64,000 nt of DNA from Picochlorum sp. 'celeri'. Its lineage: Eukaryota > Chlorophyta > Trebouxiophyceae. The notes beneath the pieces were generated by a model, which had not been told where the DNA came from, ran no database searches, and was given only the letters and a program-made list of their open reading frames with translations. The DNA lies in the NCBI GenBank assembly GCA_010909725.1, contig JAACMV010000016.1, forward strand, positions 1,031,501 through 1,095,500, given 5' to 3'. A program made the position numbers and the translations under genes. Shown piece by piece: positions 35,725 to 44,912 of this stretch (the stretch's first letter is position 1; every line of letters starts with the position of its first letter).

Positions 35725-36062
35725 GGTGATACTGCAGTAGTAAAAATAGAATACAATGCAATGCCTTTCGTGGCTCACCAGGCCAAGAAGGCTGTTTTTC
35801 TTCCGTGTCTTGTTCTCTTCGAGAACGAATAAAACAAAGGGAGAGTGTGCTTGTCAGATTGAAACCCCCTTGAATCGCTCTTCACGTATACATGACGCGT
35901 GGCATTTCAATTCAATTCAACAGTAATTGTTGCAAGCAATGATATTATTGTTGGGTCGTCCTTTCTTTCCGTATATAGATAATTTAAGTCTCTGCTCGTA
36001 CTTGAACTCGTGTCGACTTCAAGCCATCCATCATACTCTGAAAACATTTTGATTGAGACATC

Positions 36063-36809
36063 ATGATGCCCACCACCGTCTCACAGCGACCAAGCGTCGC
36101 CCAGACGGGCATCTCTTCCTCCACAACCACACGACATGTCTGTAGAAATTTGTGTGGCCATGGGAGACCGAATACCACGATTGCCCTTTCTATAGGACAC
36201 GATAGAGATGGATTGAAATTCAGCGACGGCACATTGGGATCAAAGCTCGCAAAAGCTTCCATCACAGCAGCGGCCTTTCTGGCCATACAGTTCTCAACCA
36301 CAGGTGCAGAGGCCTTGGCCAGATGGGATGGCTCATCAGCAGCCATCGGATCCTGTCCCCTTGGAGAGGCAGGGGAGGAATGTAGGAGAGGAGAATTGGC
36401 CCAGGATGCCTTGCTCAACTACTCTCAGGTCAGCGGAAAGGATGCCAACTCTTCAAAGGTGAGTGGCAAAGCCACTGGCGTGCCTGTGTCAGACATGTCA
36501 ACATCCGCCTACGCCAAAGACACCAAAGCATTGGCCTCGGCGATCGAGTCGTATGTATCTCTCGACCCATACGATGAGCAGCGCGTGGAATTGGTTAAAA
36601 TGCTCAAGAAGGAAGGCCTGGAGTGGGTTTCCAAGTATGCCAGGGGTGGATCTGCTAGAAAAGTGTCCGCCAGAACGTTCTACATTGCAATTGATGCCAT
36701 CCAGGGACACGTAGCATCCAATGGGTATGCTCCATTCCCACGATCAAAAGCCACCAAAGTGTTGGCCGATGTCAACAAGGCCATGGCCTTGCTCGAGTCT
36801 GGAAAATAG
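36063..36809 (+). CDS. PSB27: Photosystem II assembly/repair factor Psb27
   Basis: Intronless, 248 residues. A bipartite plastid/lumen presequence is visible: a Ser/Thr-rich start, then hydrophobic ASITAAAFLAIQFSTTGAEALA ending in an A-x-A site. A segment with a possible disulfide pair (SCPLGEAGEECRRGELAQDA) comes before the Psb27 four-helix bundle, which covers YAKDTKALASAIESYV, ELVKMLKKEGLEWVSKYARG, ARTFYIAIDAIQGHVASNGY and a final helix ending AMALLESGK. Psb27 binds CP43 on the lumenal side during PSII assembly and repair. The approximately 60-residue Cys-containing linker is longer than usual. No TGTAA was seen close by. Confidence 0.85.
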   Translation: MMPTTVSQRPSVAQTGISSSTTTRHVCRNLCGHGRPNTTIALSIGHDRDGLKFSDGTLGSKLAKASITAAAFLAIQFSTTGAEALARWDGSSAAIGSCPLGEAGEECRRGELAQDALLNYSQVSGKDANSSKVSGKATGVPVSDMSTSAYAKDTKALASAIESYVSLDPYDEQRVELVKMLKKEGLEWVSKYARGGSARKVSARTFYIAIDAIQGHVASNGYAPFPRSKATKVLADVNKAMALLESGK

Positions 36810-37132
36810 ATGACGGACATGGGTTGGATCCAACCCGAATACTTGCATTCATCAGGTATGACTTGAATCGGGACACAGCATGTATGCAACAACGAGGAGG
36901 GAAAACGACGGAATTGGGAGTAACTAGTCTGTCCCTGACAAGGGTGTGACTGAGGCATTAAAGAGAGACTAAAGTCAGATTTGCCCGAAGTATGATTTGA
37001 AGATATTCATCATATATAATTATATATAATAATTGATTGTTAAACATCATACAACATCAGATGGGCCTGGACTCCGCAGGCAAATATGTCCTCAAGCCGT
37101 CAGATTTGGGATTTCGCGCAACCCATCACTCT

Positions 37133-37203
37133 CCCGTCCGGACGGGATCGATCCGCCTAGTGCATACGAGGCCATGCATGGCCATGGCCATGGCCATGCA
37201 TGG
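37133..37203. repeat. Cluster of perfect palindromes
   Basis: CCCGTCCGGACGGG (37133-37146) is a perfect 14-bp palindrome. At 37172-37203 a perfect 32-bp palindrome consists of CCATGCATGG, GCCATGGCC-type units and CCATGCATGG. Such dyads can mark transposon ends, recombinase sites or extrusion-prone DNA. Lying about 580 bp before the Fanzor ATG, they are candidates for element-linked sites. Confidence 0.55.
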
Positions 37204-37546
37204 AGTTGATATGCTGTGACAATTCCTGTCAGACTCGATTTTTTTTTTTTTTGTGAGAATTATCTCGTCCCAAACTGACGTTTGTCAACGGCATCTCGCG
37301 AAGAAACATAGCTTCGCTGTGGTAGGCTACTACAGTACCGATAGTATAGACTCGGACGACGACTGGCGTGGTCGTGCCTTTCCGACCCTTGTTCTCGTCG
37401 TCTCGTATTATCAAAGTAGTGGTAATTTCTATAGTAGAGTTTATCTTGAAATTATAATTCCATAAAAGGACCGCCGGTGCTGCTGCTGCTGGGCGTGCGG
37501 TTGGTTGTTGAGTGGAAACACCAGTTGTTGTTGTTGTTAGTTTTTT

Positions 37547-37584
37547 TGCACGGGCGTTGACCCAGCAGCTGCGATCAACGCCCG
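37547..37584. repeat. Stem-loop with 12-bp perfect arms upstream of Fanzor
   Basis: CACGGGCGTTGA (37547-37558) pairs perfectly with TCAACGCCCGTG (37573-37584) around a 14-nt loop. It is GC-rich, unlike the sequence before it, and about 200 bp from the Fanzor start. It could be part of an element end or a structured leader; its role is unknown. Confidence 0.5.
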
Positions 37585-37781
37585 TGGAGGCCGCGCACTG
37601 ATCAGCCGAGCCTGTTCGGACGGTTACAGAGACAACTATTGCACACACAAGGTACGAATCCCATACAGACACGAAGGACCACGTTTGATAGCAGGGGAGT
37701 TACGATCAGTTTCCTTGTGTAGGTGACAAAAGGACCGTGGCGCGTGTGTGAGGAGGAAGAGATAAAGATACGGTAGTGCCA

Positions 37782-40700
37782 ATGGAAAAAGGATTCGTTA
37801 ATCAAGGTCCTACCGTCGCAACATCGACGCCTGGAGGGGAGGCTCCCCACATGGTGTGTGATGACCCAACAGGGTCCAGACCTACAGGAGACCACAGGAA
37901 AGAGGCAAAATTCAGGACTGAAAAGTTAGGTCTCTATAGAAAAACACGGGGAAAACAGAGTAAATACGCGCAAGAAGTGAGGAAGGTGATAAAACCTGGA
38001 TCTCTGGGCGGGTATCAAGACCACAACCGAACGAACAAGGGACAGTGGAAGGGTATTGCTCGCACATCCAGAATCAAAGAGCTTCTGTATGACACGGCCA
38101 CGATGGTGGGCCACATATCCGTCGAAGCCACCCAAGCTGCTCACTACCACGTGTACCGATGCCTCGAGGAAGGTATTGATCTGGGGAAGATGGATTACAA
38201 CAATTTTTGGAACTACATCTTTGATGCCATCAAAGACCTCAGATATGGGGACGGCCTCAAACAGGACATCAGGACACCCCTGTACGACTCGCTCCGACAG
38301 TATGCAGAAGAGGCTCCACTACCTCAGGCAGGAGAGTCTCTGAGATGGGACGTTGACGGTCACACGGCCTGGCGTCGGCGTTGCCTCCTCGCTGCGGCGG
38401 ATGCAAAGGCTCAGAATTTGCACATTATTCTACACCACAATGCGTATCACAATCTTTGCAAGATTGTCAAGGTTCGGCTTGCACACACCTTTGGGGCACG
38501 ATACGCGGATGACTTTCGTTCTTTGGTGTCTGCCGTTGCCGTTGCTGTGTGGGAGGACGTGGATTTCCGTGATGTGAAGGAAGGGTACGACAGATTGAAG
38601 AATCTAACCGAGGAAGAGGTCCAAGACATCCAGGAGACGATCGTCACCCCTATTCGGGAGAAATTCCCGGATCAGGAAGGCCGAAAGGAAAATGCCAAGA
38701 TGATGGAATTCGTGCACTTTGTTGCGGGCGAGGTGATGGAATACAACCGCCACCGTTCTGAGCAGTCCGGCCCCGGGAGCCCACCACAGGACATCGAGTT
38801 AGTGAATATGTGTGTGGGAGAAAAACTGGCGGTGGCTATCGAGCGAGATTTGAGGAAAGGATCGCTCACCAAGAAGGCGTTTGTCCACCACGTGAAGCAT
38901 GCGCTGGACATATTCCGACAGTGTTCTGGTCCAGACGTGTTCACCACCCGCACAGACCAGGGACTCCGGGATGGGGACAACGGACCACGTGTCGTGGACC
39001 GAAACGACAGGTATCGGGGGCAAATTTTGTGTCTTCTGTCGGAGAGGATTCTGTACCAGAGTCAGAAGGGTGGTGCCGAATTCCTGAGCCAAGACCAAGT
39101 GGGTTGGATCGATGGCATCTCGTCTGAACTGCGCCTCCCTTCGTCCTTGGCCGACTACGACATGACCAAGAATGATTTTGCCGACTATATGGAGAGGGTC
39201 ATTCTGCCCAAGCTCCGCTCGTCGTTCTTGTTCGTTGCTCCGAGGAGAAGCAACGATGCAGAGGCCCCATGGGGAAAGCGAATCCAAGTGCCGTCCGTCC
39301 TCCCCCTGGCAAAGAAGAGGGCCTGTCATATCAGCATTCCGACTGCGGCTATCACCGGTCTCGCAGAGGGCCTGGCACAGGAGAGTAGTGACATTGCTAA
39401 AGCGATACACGGCCCCCGGGAGACACTGCGCGAGGCACGGCAAAGGGTGACATCAATCGAGTCGAGAATCGTGGACATGGACAAAGAAAACTGGTTGACC
39501 GACGAGCAACAGAAGGTTAAACAGGAACTTGAAGATAATAAGAAAAAAAGCAAGCTCGAATTTGAGCAGACCCCGACAGGAAAGCGGCACCGGTACAAGA
39601 AGTCTGACGAGGAAAAGAAGCTGTGCAAGGAATTGACAGACAGGAAGAACGCGTTATTGAATGGCAGCCAAGAGTACGTGGATGCTCGAGAAGAAGTGGA
39701 AAAGGCTGCGTTGCGGTATCAAGAGTGCTGTTGGACGGCCCTGTTCAATATCAAAGTCAGAAGGTGCCAAAACGGACACCAGTGGCTGTTTGGAGGGCAG
39801 CTGTCCACGGACGGTGTCGACGTGTCGATGCAGTATTATCGTCTGAAGACGGACGACGAAATTCGAGCCGACGAGGAGGAAAAGGAAAGGATAAAGGCCA
39901 GGGCGGCGGAGAAGGCGACGGGGTCTTCGACAGGAAAGCCGAGGAAGCGAAAACGAACGAGTAGGGCGGGGCCAGGCACCCCGCAGTCCTCGAATCTCTC
40001 CAGTCGAGGGAACCTGGACAGAGCAAAAGACCTGCTGGCCGCATCGCCCGACAACGCATGGGTCTTCGATCCAGGGCCCGATGGCCACGTGGGCATCAAG
40101 ATGGAGCAGGGCAAGATGAGGGAGCTCTGCCAGGAGAACAAGCGACACGGGGACTACGACCCGTTCGAGACGATGAGTCTGACCAACCACGAGATGCAAT
40201 CGCGTGCGGGCATCCTCAAACGAAAGGCGCTGGAACGGGCGTGGTCGCAGGCCAGGCCAGGCATCGGGGCATGGAAACAGGAGGCACCCACCAGAAAGGT
40301 CGGAACAGCAAGGGATATGCTGGCATTCTGCAGAATGACCAATAGCCACCTGAACACGGTGTATGGATTTTATTCCCAGAACTGTTTCCGGAGGCAAAGG
40401 TTCTCTGTGTACACGAGGACGCAACGAATGCTGGACTCCATGGTTGAACGGATCTGCGGGACGAAGGACAGGGAGGCTCAGAGCAAGACCGTGGTTGTGT
40501 TTGGGGACGCCTCGATCAACTCGGGGAAACACGGAAAACAGAGGATCTGCTTTCGGGCCCTCAAGGACCTGCTGCGGCAGAGGTGCTGTTTCATCGAGAT
40601 TGGCGAGTTCCGAAGTAGCCAATACTGCTGTGCCTGCCATGCCAAATTGGAGGACCCCCCCCGCGGTGGGGCTTCACAAGCGCTGGAAAGTACGCCGTTG

Positions 40701-40857
40701 TATGAACAATGGATGTGAGCGTGCTTTCTGGCAACGAGACGTGAATGCAGCCATCAATCTCGCCAAGTTTTTCCTGTGGGAAATCAACGGCGACGAGAAA
40801 CCAACAGTCTTCCAAAGGCCTCGGACACGAGCAGAGGAGGACATCCCCGACGTGTGA
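37782..40857 (+). CDS. Fanzor-family RNA-guided nuclease (eukaryotic TnpB-like) with a frame break
   Basis: Intronless. The main frame runs from ATG 37782 to a TGA at 40716-40718 (978 residues); the conserved C-terminus continues in the +1 frame to 40857. Residues 1-650 are helical and unrecognised, with a coiled region at 560-640. TDGVDVSMQYYR near 677 is a typical Fanzor strand, followed by a basic KPRKRKRTS stretch. RuvC-I is VFDPGPDGHVG (Asp 763). At the usual TnpB RuvC-II site the protein reads VVVFGDAS; the Fanzor-type relocated Glu is in IGEFRSSQYC (Glu 942). The zinc finger opens with YCCACH. After the break at the C8 run 40655-40662 the other frame supplies CMNNGC and QRDVNAAINLAKF (RuvC-III Asp, codon 40738-40740). 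Fanzors cut DNA guided by an omega-like RNA usually encoded near the gene's 3' end. As assembled it should be inactive unless a +1 shift or assembly error applies. Confidence 0.88.
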
Positions 40858-41113
40858 TACAACGGAAAACACTACAGTCACATAGCTACATGCATATGAT
40901 GTATAATATAAATATTATCATAAGGAAATAAAAAGAAAAGAAATAAAAAGAAAAAGGCAAGGAAAGACCTCATACGCTGTGTGCGGAGAGAGAAACAGAG
41001 GGACAACAACGATACCGAATCGTGTCTTGTTTCATACTCCCACAGAGTCGATCTGGTCGGTGGATAGAGTCTTTTGTATCTTATTATATTAATGTAGTGA
41101 TATTGAGAGGAAT
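40858..41113. other. Region 3' of Fanzor, candidate guide-RNA and alpha-COP promoter zone
   Basis: AT-rich and A-rich. It contains a near-palindrome ATAATATAAATATTAT in 40899-40920 and a 15-bp tandem duplication (GAAATAAAAAGAAAA twice, 40925-40954). In characterised Fanzors the guide RNA overlaps the 3' end and 3' UTR of the gene, so this is where one would be looked for. The right end of the element and the alpha-COP promoter must both fall here. Confidence 0.4.
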
Positions 41114-44100
41114 ATGGTACGTTTGTGCATGTGAGAGCGAAGGCGTTGGCCGTGATGAGTGATGGAGATCACCGCTCTGTTTGATACAATCTCACGGGGT
41201 GATGGTGGCATGGTTGCAGTTGACTAAATTTGAAACAAAGAGTAACCGAGTGAAGGGACTCAGTTTCCATCCGAAGAGGCCATGGATATTGGCCTCTCTT
41301 CACAGCGGTGTGGTTCAGTTGTGGGACTACAGGATGGGAACGTTGATTGATCGCTTCGATGAGCATGAGGGGCCTGTTCGAGGAGTGGATTTTCATCCAT
41401 CTCAGCCTCTGTTTGTGTCTGGAGGAGATGATTACAAGATCAAGGTGTGGAACTATAAGCAGAGAAGGTGCTTGTTTACGCTGCTGGGGCATTTGGATTA
41501 CATTCGCACGGTGCAGTTTCACAGCGAGTCTCCGTGGATTGTGAGTGCATCTGATGATCAGACGATTCGTGTTTGGAATTGGCAGTCGAGGACGTGTGCG
41601 GCTGTGTTGACGGGGCATAATCACTATGTGATGTGTGCTCAGTTCCACCCAAAGGAGGATTTGGTGGTTTCTGCCTCGCTGGATCAGACTGTGCGTGTGT
41701 GGGATATTAGCGCGTTGCGGAAGAAGAATGTGACCCCAGGTATGGGTCCGCGCGACGAGCTGTCGATGAGGGCGGCACAGGCGAATGCAGAATTGTTTGG
41801 CAGCGGGGATGCTGTTGTCAAGTATGTGCTGGAGGGACATGACCGTGGTGTGAATTGGGCGTCTTTCCATCCGAGTCTTCCCCTGATTGTGTCAGGAGCT
41901 GATGATAGACAGGTCAAGTTGTGGCGAATGAATGACACAAAGGCGTGGGAGGTTGATACACTGCGGGGGCATGTGAATAATGTGTCGAGTGTGCTGTTCC
42001 ATCCAAAGCAGGATCTCATCATCTCAGATTCTGAGGATAAGTCTCTTCGTGTGTGGGATATGTCCAAGAGAGTCGGTGTGCAGACATTCAGACGTGAACA
42101 TGATCGGTTCTGGATCCTTGCGGCTCATCCTAATATTAATTTGTTGGCTGCCGGGCATGATTCTGGAATGGTGGTGTTCAAATTGGAGCGGGAGAGGCCA
42201 GCCTTTGCCTCGCATGGCACGACGCTGTTCTACATCAAAGACCGGTACATCAGATCGTATGATTTTGCAACTGGAAGAGATGCGCCTTTGACGGCGTTAC
42301 GCCGCAACCCTGCTGCGCTGTACAACCAAGGTGCTCGGTCAATGTCCTACAATCCAGCAGAGAACTCTGCCTTGGTGCAATCTGATGCAGAGGGTGGTAC
42401 CTGGGAACTGTATCCACTGCCAAAAGATGGTTCATCTGTCAGAGATACTGGGGATGTCAAGCGCGGAGATGGATCTTCCACTGTCTTTATTGCTCGCAAC
42501 AGATTTGCTTCTTTTGACAAGTCAAGCAACACGATTGTCGTTCGTGATCTGAGAGGGGACATAACGAAGAAGGTAGCATCTCCATTGCCAGCCACTGAAG
42601 GTATCTTTTATGCTGGTACAGGCATGCTGTTGCTCCGCTCGGAGGAAAAGGTGGCCTTGTTTGATGTGCAGCAGCGCAATGTTGCTGCCGACATTTCTGC
42701 TCCAATGGTCAAGTATGTGGTCTGGAGCGGGGACATGGAACGGGTTGCTTTGCTCTCAAAGCACTCGATCATCATTGCTGATCGAAAGCTCCAGAATACA
42801 GTCACCATTCATGAGACGATCCGAATCAAGAGTGCAGCATGGGATGATGCAGGTGTGCTTGTCTACACCACGTTGAACCACATCAAGTACTGTCTGCCAT
42901 CTGGAGACAGCGGAGTGGTGAGAACTCTCGAATCGCCTGTATACCTTACAAAAGTGCATAATGATATGGTATATTGCTTGGATAGAGAGGCCAAGCCGCG
43001 TGTGGTGCAGATTAACAGTGCAGAATACAAGTTCAAACTTGCCCTGTCAGAGAAGAAATATGATGTTGTTCTGGGAATGATTCGTGCTGGAAAGCTGTGT
43101 GGGGAAGCAATCATTGCCTTTTTGCAGGAAAAGGGTTATCCCGAAGTGGCATTGCACTTTGTGAAGGACGAAAGGATGCGCTTCAATTTGGCCATTGAGT
43201 GTGGAAATATTGAAGTGGCTCTCGAAAGTGCCCAGGCCCTCGACACCAGGGTAATGTGGCAGCGCCTTGGTACAGAAGCTCTTCGCCAAGGAAATTTCAA
43301 GATTGTGGAGTATGCGTATCAGAAAACGAAGGATTATGAACGGCTCTCATTCCTGTATGCCATCACAGGAGACACTGACAAGCTCGCCAAGATGGGCAAG
43401 ATTGCCGAAGTCCGTGGAGACATTGCTTCGGCATTCCACAATGCACTTTATATTGGAGATGCAAAGGAACGTGTCCGCATCTTGAGGGAAGGTGGCCAGC
43501 CGTCATTGGCATATTTGACCGCCTGCACCAATGGTCTTGCAGAGGAGGTGGCAGAGTTGGAGGCTGAGATTGGAGAGGAGAATTTGCCATCCCTCCCAAA
43601 TCCTGCAAACGTTAAGCAACTGAGAATTCCAGTTCCAATCACGAAGGAGGCGAACTGGCCTCTTCTCACAGTGTCAAAGGGATTCTTTGAGAGTCTTGCG
43701 ACAAAGGATGCAGAGAAAGCCAAAGGTGTTGCACAAGCAGCAGCTGCTGTTGCAGATGAGGTTGACCTTTCGGCTGTGGCTGATGCATGGGGTGACGAAG
43801 ACGACGTGCTGGCCATTGGAGACGGTGTCGAGGAAGAAGGAGAAGGTGACATGGGCTTGGGCGAGGAAGGATCTGATGGGTGGGAGATGGAAGATCTTGA
43901 TCTGCCACCTGAGGCTCTGGCAGCTGCAGATGATGTAGGTCTTGATGGAACTGGGGAAGAGTTTGTGTCGCCAAATCCAGGGCCATCCATGGCAAACCAG
44001 TGGTCTACCAATTGCCATCTTCCAGCTGAACAGGTTGCGGCAGGAGCATTTGACACTGCCATGCGCTTGTTGCAGCGCCAGGCCGGTATTTCTCGCTTCG

Positions 44101-44912
44101 AGCCAATGAAAAAGCACTTCCTCGATGTGTTCAGATGCAGTCATGGGTGCCAGCCAGGTTTATCTGGGCTGCCATCTATGACGATTCCATTGAATAGAGG
44201 ATGGGATCCAGAGGTAGATGCACAAAACTTGTGTGCACCAGCCCTCCCACTGTCCCTCCCATTGCAGGAAGAGAGATTGGTTAAATCATACCGTTTGGTT
44301 ACGGAGGGTAAATTCGCCGATGCATTGTCATCATTTGATGAAATCCTGCACTCTATTCCATTGCTGGTGGTTGATTCCAGGAAGGAAGCAGATGAAGTCA
44401 AGGAGCTGCTGTCTATTGCTCGGGACTATAACATTGCATTGAGAGTAGAATTAAAGCGCCGAGAAGTCAAGAGCGAGCCAACAAGGGCCGCAGAGCTGGC
44501 AGCTTACTTCACACACTGCAACCTTCAAAGGGTGCATGCTGCGCTGAGTTTGAGAAGTGCAATGACGACCTTCTTCAAGCTGAAGAACTACAACACCTGT
44601 GCGACCTTCTGCAGACGGCTGTTGGAGTTACAGCCTGATGAAAAGATGGCCACACAGGCCAGACAAGTGCTGGCAGCATGTGAGAAGAATCCAGTGGATG
44701 AGGTTCAGCTGGACTATGATCCAAGAAATCCGTTTGACATATGCTCGGTCACATTCTCTCCAATATACAAAGGCAATGCATTTGTAGAGGATCCATATAC
44801 AAAAGCCAAGTTCAAGCCAGAATGTGAGGGTCAAGTTTCCCCAGTTGGCAATGTTGCTGTGATTGGGGATCAATCCTCAGGACTGGTCTTGTGCAAAGCA
44901 CAGTTGAAGTAA
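41114..44912 (+). CDS. COPA: Coatomer subunit alpha (alpha-COP)
   Basis: Exon 1 is the ATG alone (41114-41116), followed by a GTACGT donor and a 103-bp intron; exon 2 is 41220-44912. The joined start MLTKFETKSNRVKGLSFHPK is the textbook alpha-COP N-terminus, which supports this model over the alternative ATG at 41202. Total 1231 residues, normal length. Seven-blade WD40 propeller (for example WILASLHSGVVQLWDYRMGT, FVSGGDDYKIKVWNYK, IVSGADDRQVKLWRMND), second propeller and solenoid, then the C-terminal domain ending QSSGLVLCKAQLK. It binds KKXX cargo signals and forms COPI coats at the Golgi. GC is about 45% in the sampled line 41401-41460, unlike the Fanzor next door. TGTAA lies at 44924-44928. 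Confidence 0.97.

Follow-up and report, generated by a model that had tools for sequence, protein, structure and literature searches.

A large, divergent Fanzor1-like gene on a repeated unit in the green alga Picochlorum celeri

Fanzors are eukaryotic RNA-guided DNA cutters that are often carried on mobile DNA, and their role for the host or for the element is still an open question. Most Fanzor1 proteins are reported to comprise 600-700 residues (PMC11423790). A DPG motif at RuvC-I together with a glutamate in an alternative position has been described as the Fanzor fingerprint, present in less than 1% of TnpB-family proteins (PMC10711439); these two features alone do not separate Fanzor1 from Fanzor2. 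For TnpB and Fanzor proteins in general, the motif D-X(125,275)-[TS][TS]-XX-C4 zinc finger-X(5,50)-RD has been proposed (Bao and Jurka 2013, PMC3627910). Here we describe a gene found in a 64,000-nucleotide stretch of the genome of Picochlorum sp. 'celeri' (contig JAACMV010000016.1, positions 1,031,501 to 1,095,500; hereafter the window), together with the repeated unit in which it lies. The gene probably encodes a large and divergent member of the Fanzor1 group. By homology, its product would be an RNA-guided DNA endonuclease, consisting of an N-terminal REC/WED lobe with an insertion of about 200 residues and, at the C-terminus, a RuvC/TNB lobe that has the relocated glutamate. This protein and its relatives, termed family A, carry the Fanzor fingerprint; they are related to another Fanzor family in the same genome (family B) and, through that family, to Fanzor1 proteins of solved structure. 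The genome searched was the 27,412,692-base assembly of 30 contigs, in which C16 is the contig of the window copy and C10 carries its allele. Uninterrupted family-A relatives encode 1,024 amino acids (aa) at C19 and C11, and 990 aa in a more distant copy on C14.

The initial annotation, made from the sequence alone, recognised a Fanzor by a TDGVDVS strand, a RuvC-I aspartate, a relocated glutamate, Cys pairs and RDVNAAIN, and each of these features is found in the sequence where that annotation had placed it (Table 1). TDGV is invariant across the aligned proteins of families A and B, and DPG at RuvC-I (D763-P-G) is met in the window copy and in the uninterrupted relatives. A GD was also said to replace the RuvC-II glutamate of TnpB: the RuvC-II strand region of the window copy does read FGDASIN, but the C14 relative has FGN, hence the GD is not conserved. 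The pattern of an ordinary TnpB, that is, a RuvC-II glutamate some 50 residues N-terminal of the zinc finger and D-hydrophobic-G at RuvC-I, was not found in the window copy.

Shuffling the sequence of the uninterrupted C19 protein 20,000 times never reproduced the ordered motif. In a test set of 19 proteins (6 from this genome and 13 from databases), a relaxed Fanzor fingerprint was found in 15 and the Bao-Jurka motif, slightly loosened (CxxC for the first pair and a gap of 5-60 residues up to RD), in 16, both including all three uninterrupted family-A proteins. The frame-shifted 978-aa frame of the window, P0001 and P0013 lack both patterns, and P0003 lacks the relaxed fingerprint alone. The strict pattern of Yoon et al. 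2023 (second CxxC, x(12,18) between the Cys pairs), which is described as having served to search for Fanzor-related TnpBs (PMC10711439), matched none of the 19 proteins, family B included; family A misses it because its second pair is CxxxxC and its spacer is longer.

As a single sequence, the window open reading frame (ORF) gave no significant match in Pfam, NCBIfam, PHROGs or the PDB, and its C-terminal piece alone scored 12 bits (E 0.25) with Pfam PF07282 (TNB), the curated cut-off of which is 26.3 bits. A six-frame scan of the genome with PF07282 returned 26 matches, 25 of them above the cut-off; four of these are other family-A copies (27.7-31.9 bits), and the sole match below the cut-off is a family-A fragment on C4. 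Scanned as single proteins, the C19 and C14 relatives score slightly below the threshold (23.1 and 25.4 bits, respectively). Compared profile to profile, family A matches family B at 99.6% with an E of 2.1e-23 (hhalign). When a profile of the two families together was searched against 177,635 PDB sequences, GtFz1, the Fanzor1 of Guillardia theta, ranked first (E 1.4e-4) and SpuFz1, the Fanzor1 of Spizellomyces punctatus, second (E 0.021); the next rows, from E 0.11, are unrelated except for the transposase 9j09 (E 0.18, TNB region). The family-B profile alone also placed GtFz1 first (E 0.0011). What weighs against a Fanzor1 assignment is that the family-A profile alone found no significant Fanzor match in the PDB, with GtFz1 at rank 11 (E 1.8). 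Since the joint profile reaches the solved Fanzor1s and the family-A profile fails to do so, the sequence link from family A runs through family B. In the joint alignment, Glu942 and Asp986 fall on SpuFz1 residues that are 65 apart, as are the catalytic residues E541 and D606 reported for SpuFz1 (PMC11423790). Taken together, the fingerprint, the PF07282 matches of the four other family-A copies, the match between the two families and the PDB ranking uphold the initial annotation of a Fanzor in a green-algal genome, and make it, more exactly, Fanzor1-like.

Table 1. Features of the Fanzor-like gene and its unit (positions in the window)
Feature	Position	Strand	Basis or remark
Fanzor-like gene, both frames	37782..40857	+	two ORFs joined across one frame switch
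Main frame, 978 aa (REC/WED part, RuvC-I, RuvC-II region, first Cys pair)	37782..40718	+	
Second-frame C-terminal continuation (second Cys pair, RDVNAAIN = RuvC-III, stop)	40663..40857	+	
8-C run, site of frame loss	40655..40662	+	comparison with the C10 allele and the C19/C11 copies
TDGVDVS strand	39807..39827	+	aligned to TDGVSIS of GtFz1 and TDGASVS of SpuFz1
RuvC-I Asp763 (DPG motif), catalytic by homology	40068..40070	+	
Alternative RuvC-II Glu942, six residues ahead of CxxC	40605..40607	+	aligned to SpuFz1 Glu541
First Cys pair, Cys949/952	40626/40635	+	CxxC, context EFRSSQYCCAC
Second Cys pair, Cys973/978	40699/40714	+	CxxxxC, completes C4 zinc finger
RuvC-III Asp986 (RDVNAAIN)	40738..40740	+	aligned to SpuFz1 Asp606
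Repeated unit with the gene, left end ATGGAGTTGATATG..., right end ...CTACATGCATAT	37200..40897	+	common to the C19/C11 locus
Right-end motif AGTCACATAGCTACATGCATAT	40876..40897	+	genome-wide pattern search; holds the hairpin 3' arm
Hairpin 5' arm GTGTGAT, overlaps the stop codon	40852..40858	+	predicted 7-bp stem, candidate omega-RNA stem
Hairpin 3' arm	40877-40883	+	inside the right-end motif

The reading frame of the window copy is interrupted once. The main frame extends from the ATG at 37782 to a stop at 40716-40718, and the second frame, which ends at the stop at 40855-40857, contributes RDVNAAIN, likewise found in the uninterrupted relatives. The C-run at which the frame is lost is one unit shorter in the C10 allele and in both the C19 and C11 copies, and the frame is open there. 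The C10 allele (99% identical DNA) has a single break of its own, near codon 53, where an A-run differs in length by one unit. That the two alleles of the locus carry different single-unit run-length breaks, and that truncated or decayed family-A copies are extant on C3, C23, C4, C27, C18 and C14, could mean that the window copy is a dead remnant with a real frame shift and that only the C19/C11 and C14 copies matter, a reading to which we give a little less than an even chance. Both breaks are, however, single-unit homopolymer differences in an assembly that fits the published one of Picochlorum celeri, described as phased diploid (27.43 Mbp, 2 x 15 scaffolds) and polished by long reads only (PMC7225527); because of this mode of polishing, the frame shift in the window may be an assembly artefact. 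The window copy is otherwise free of stops and retains all three catalytic residues. Purifying selection has acted since the window and C19/C11 loci parted: over residues 1-957, C16 and C19 differ by 36.5 synonymous and 40.5 non-synonymous changes, a ratio of non-synonymous to synonymous rates (dN/dS) of 0.31, with the non-synonymous changes below the neutral expectation (p 6e-7, counts rounded to 37 and 40). This ratio argues against a dead remnant, although it is an average over the entire period since the two loci diverged. Against the open part of the C10 allele, the window copy shows just 1 synonymous and 5 non-synonymous changes, a sample too small for a judgement.

The gene lies in a unit of about 3.7 kb that is repeated, with shared ends, at two loci. 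The similarity of approximately 96% to the C19 and C11 copies begins at 37189-37199 and ends near 40922; the flanks of the two loci are unrelated, and both alleles of the window locus are occupied by the unit. The left-end motif was found at C16, C10, C19 and C11 only. The right-end motif AGTCACATNGCTANATGCATAT occurs at 13 sites genome-wide (11 exact to the pattern and two with one mismatch; 0 for the reversed control), nine at family-A copies or remnants, two (C8/C17) beside decayed fragments and two (C2/C22) without a gene remnant. At C2/C22 the exact 22-bp motif (L046:589-610 and L047:573-594), within a similarity of about 24-43 bp, lies 3' of an unrelated ORF and may be a 'ghost' right end. 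The C19 and C11 haplotypes differ by an inversion of about 1.7 kb (L021:1489-3172 compared with L022), one of its breakpoints being at the left end of the Fanzor unit. The C14 copy (C14:383833) has an allele on C18 in which the final 74 bases of the gene are retained with 97% identity and the interior is shorter and different; C18 was considered as an empty site for the C14 copy and rejected, as it carries a decayed or different version.

Carriage by a transposon was also put forward in the initial annotation; the family-A unit recurs with the same ends at two loci, but no recognisable transposon was seen. The best local alignment between the ends of the family-A unit as inverted repeats scored 17, a value matched by 22% of shuffles, no target duplication was found at the unit, and DDE_3, the transposase family searched for, is absent from the genome. 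In view of these three results, we only infer that family A is mobile. A search of the IMG/VR viral contigs, limited to short patterns, yielded no relative with either a single protein or the A2 profile, therefore we have no evidence here for viral carriage. The lack of these transposon hallmarks, the purifying selection, the occupancy of both window alleles and the counterpart of the C14 copy in Picochlorum sp. BPE23 (96% identical over 76% of its length) would also suit a Fanzor adopted by the host, with the nuclease fold retained for a cellular function, for instance in regulation, rather than for spreading the unit. We consider this unlikely: the unit stands at two loci with unrelated flanks, its ends have motifs in common, and some of its copies are truncated or decayed, as would be expected of a mobile family; its catalytic triad is intact.

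A candidate guide RNA lies at the right end of the unit, where a 7-bp stem (GUGUGAU/GUCACAU) is predicted that ends 14 nt ahead of the right end. In the three copies folded, the terminal 100 nt give a somewhat more stable structure than shuffled versions do (z -2.16, -2.08 and -1.85). The optimal fold includes the hairpin in the window and C14 copies but not in the C27 copy; all seven pairs are kept in seven of eight aligned copies, C27 losing one, and the hairpin is absent at C2/C22. As its 5' arm is partly coding, this conservation proves little. Covariation at the right end is not convincing (two-sided change in one of 36 predicted pairs), and Rfam gave no match. Seven pairs are also reported for the first stem loop in the omega RNAs of three Fanzor1s (PMC11423790), a likeness that we regard as a parallel and not as evidence of an RNA.

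Beyond the relationship in sequence and fold, we infer a mechanism from the homologous proteins SpuFz1 and GtFz1. The family-A protein would bind an omega RNA transcribed from the 3' end of the unit that encodes it, and the conserved right end of the unit would mark the boundary between scaffold and guide. The guide would pair with DNA matching the sequence beyond the right end, the D-E-D triad would cut both strands, and cutting could favour the persistence or copying of the unit, a role that has been proposed for TnpB and Fanzor. A more specific version, to which we give little credence, is that family A is a Fanzor1 unit free of both transposase and inverted repeats that is spread by its own nuclease in the manner of a homing element. 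The omega RNA would then end at the right end of the unit, with its stem overlapping the stop codon, and direct the cutting of unoccupied sites, and repair would copy the unit in; the insert of about 200 residues in the REC part would be a new target-recognition part, and the gene-less right ends at C2/C22 would be guide-only loci.

The initial annotation left the N-terminal region of about 650 residues unassigned and suggested a new accessory module, a suggestion that the structural comparison does not bear out. The seven best structural matches of residues ~63-697 are all solved Fanzor1s, in their REC/WED part, according to a low-confidence model the alignment of which is shared with family B; 296 residues of SpuFz1, 292 of PpFz1 (from Parasitella parasitica) and 309 of GtFz1 align with this region. 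That an accessory module is fused to a Fanzor here appears improbable on this account and given that Fanzor N-termini are described as highly variable (PMC3627910), even though the N-terminal region has no Pfam or PDB sequence match and residues 294-345 and 356-503 (bar one residue) have no counterpart in two aligned family-B proteins. These residues fall in an inserted stretch of about 200 residues (294-503) in the N-terminal lobe. At the C-terminal side, one model has a mean predicted local distance difference test score (pLDDT) of 47, and the RuvC part was modelled at about 20-60, too low to judge whether D-E-D gather in one pocket; because of this low confidence, the clustering of the RuvC residues gives no verdict on the annotation. 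It is highly improbable that the gene encodes a Fanzor2 or a TnpB, as the leading matches of the joint profile and all top structure matches are Fanzor1s, a length of 990-1,024 aa suits the Fanzor1s, described as 'considerably larger' (PMC11423790), and the alternative glutamate and the DPG at RuvC-I are unlike an ordinary TnpB as defined in PMC10711439.

Family B encodes a Fanzor of 783 aa with 13 full-length, stop-free matches in the diploid assembly, plus broken ones; a relative on C20 (809 aa) is 50% identical to it. Several family-B copies lie near contig ends. The element is about 2.57 kb long (e.g., L039:2464-5035), with sharp bounds in the eight copies compared except for the left side on C11, and has inverted ends CMGTAAAA...TTTCGTTT that match in 21 of 24 letters (counted by eye) and adjoin TA. 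These ends show the Tc1/mariner pattern that has been described for Fanzor1 (PMC3627910), and family B, judged by its sequence, sits in a Tc1/mariner-like element. Comparison of C27 with C15 revealed no clean empty site for a family-B copy, as the left flank fails to align. Two further matches (C20:47376-48233 and C5:47520-48377) are 39% identical to family B, in open frames of 1,025 and 862 aa with one internal stop, and perhaps represent a third Fanzor subfamily.

The Fanzor gene is flanked by the genes for Psb27 (36057-36809) and the COPI alpha-subunit (41196-44912), each in a single unbroken frame, neighbours that make a green-algal setting plausible. Between Psb27 and the Fanzor unit, 36874-36996 has many partial matches elsewhere in the genome, and a 42-base piece of it is repeated on C28 and C6 with a spacing of about 790-800 bases, resembling a tandem array.

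One small phased diploid genome holds two Fanzor1-type families, the large and divergent family A and family B with its many near-identical copies. Cas9 editing (PMC10820777) and Cre-lox have been reported for Picochlorum celeri, so that deleting each of the two families and tracking the outcome would be feasible in the native host. The value of the system lies in this small, editable native host with two Fanzor families; the surprise is moderate.

Among 5.8 billion proteins, P0001 was the only family-A homologue at E <= 10 (one among 7,993 and one among 7,046 scored candidates), and a search of the same proteins led by family B found 12 homologues. The accessible text of two publications that mention both Fanzor and Picochlorum (PMC12636532, PMC10820777) names no Picochlorum Fanzor, though one may be listed in the supplements of surveys. 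Family A is a new, unusually long Fanzor1, found in Picochlorum only among the searches made here, and it widens the size range of Fanzor1. P0001 (M9434_000408 of Picochlorum sp. BPE23), the counterpart of the C14 copy mentioned above, is 52% identical to the window ORF; it is deposited as a hypothetical protein of 759 aa and is without the region of the alternative glutamate, the zinc finger and RuvC-III. Family B shares the fingerprint with family A but is only 22% identical to it, is shorter and, unlike family A, sits in an element with inverted ends. The structure chain of GtFz1 (PDB code: 9cer) comprises 609 residues, in contrast to the length of family A, with 13% identity over the structural alignment. 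About 600 residues are resolved in SpuFz1 (PDB codes: 8gkh and 9ceu), some 400 fewer than in family A. Compared with PpFz1 (PDB code: 9cf1), family A has its main insertion in the N-terminal lobe and not in RuvC.
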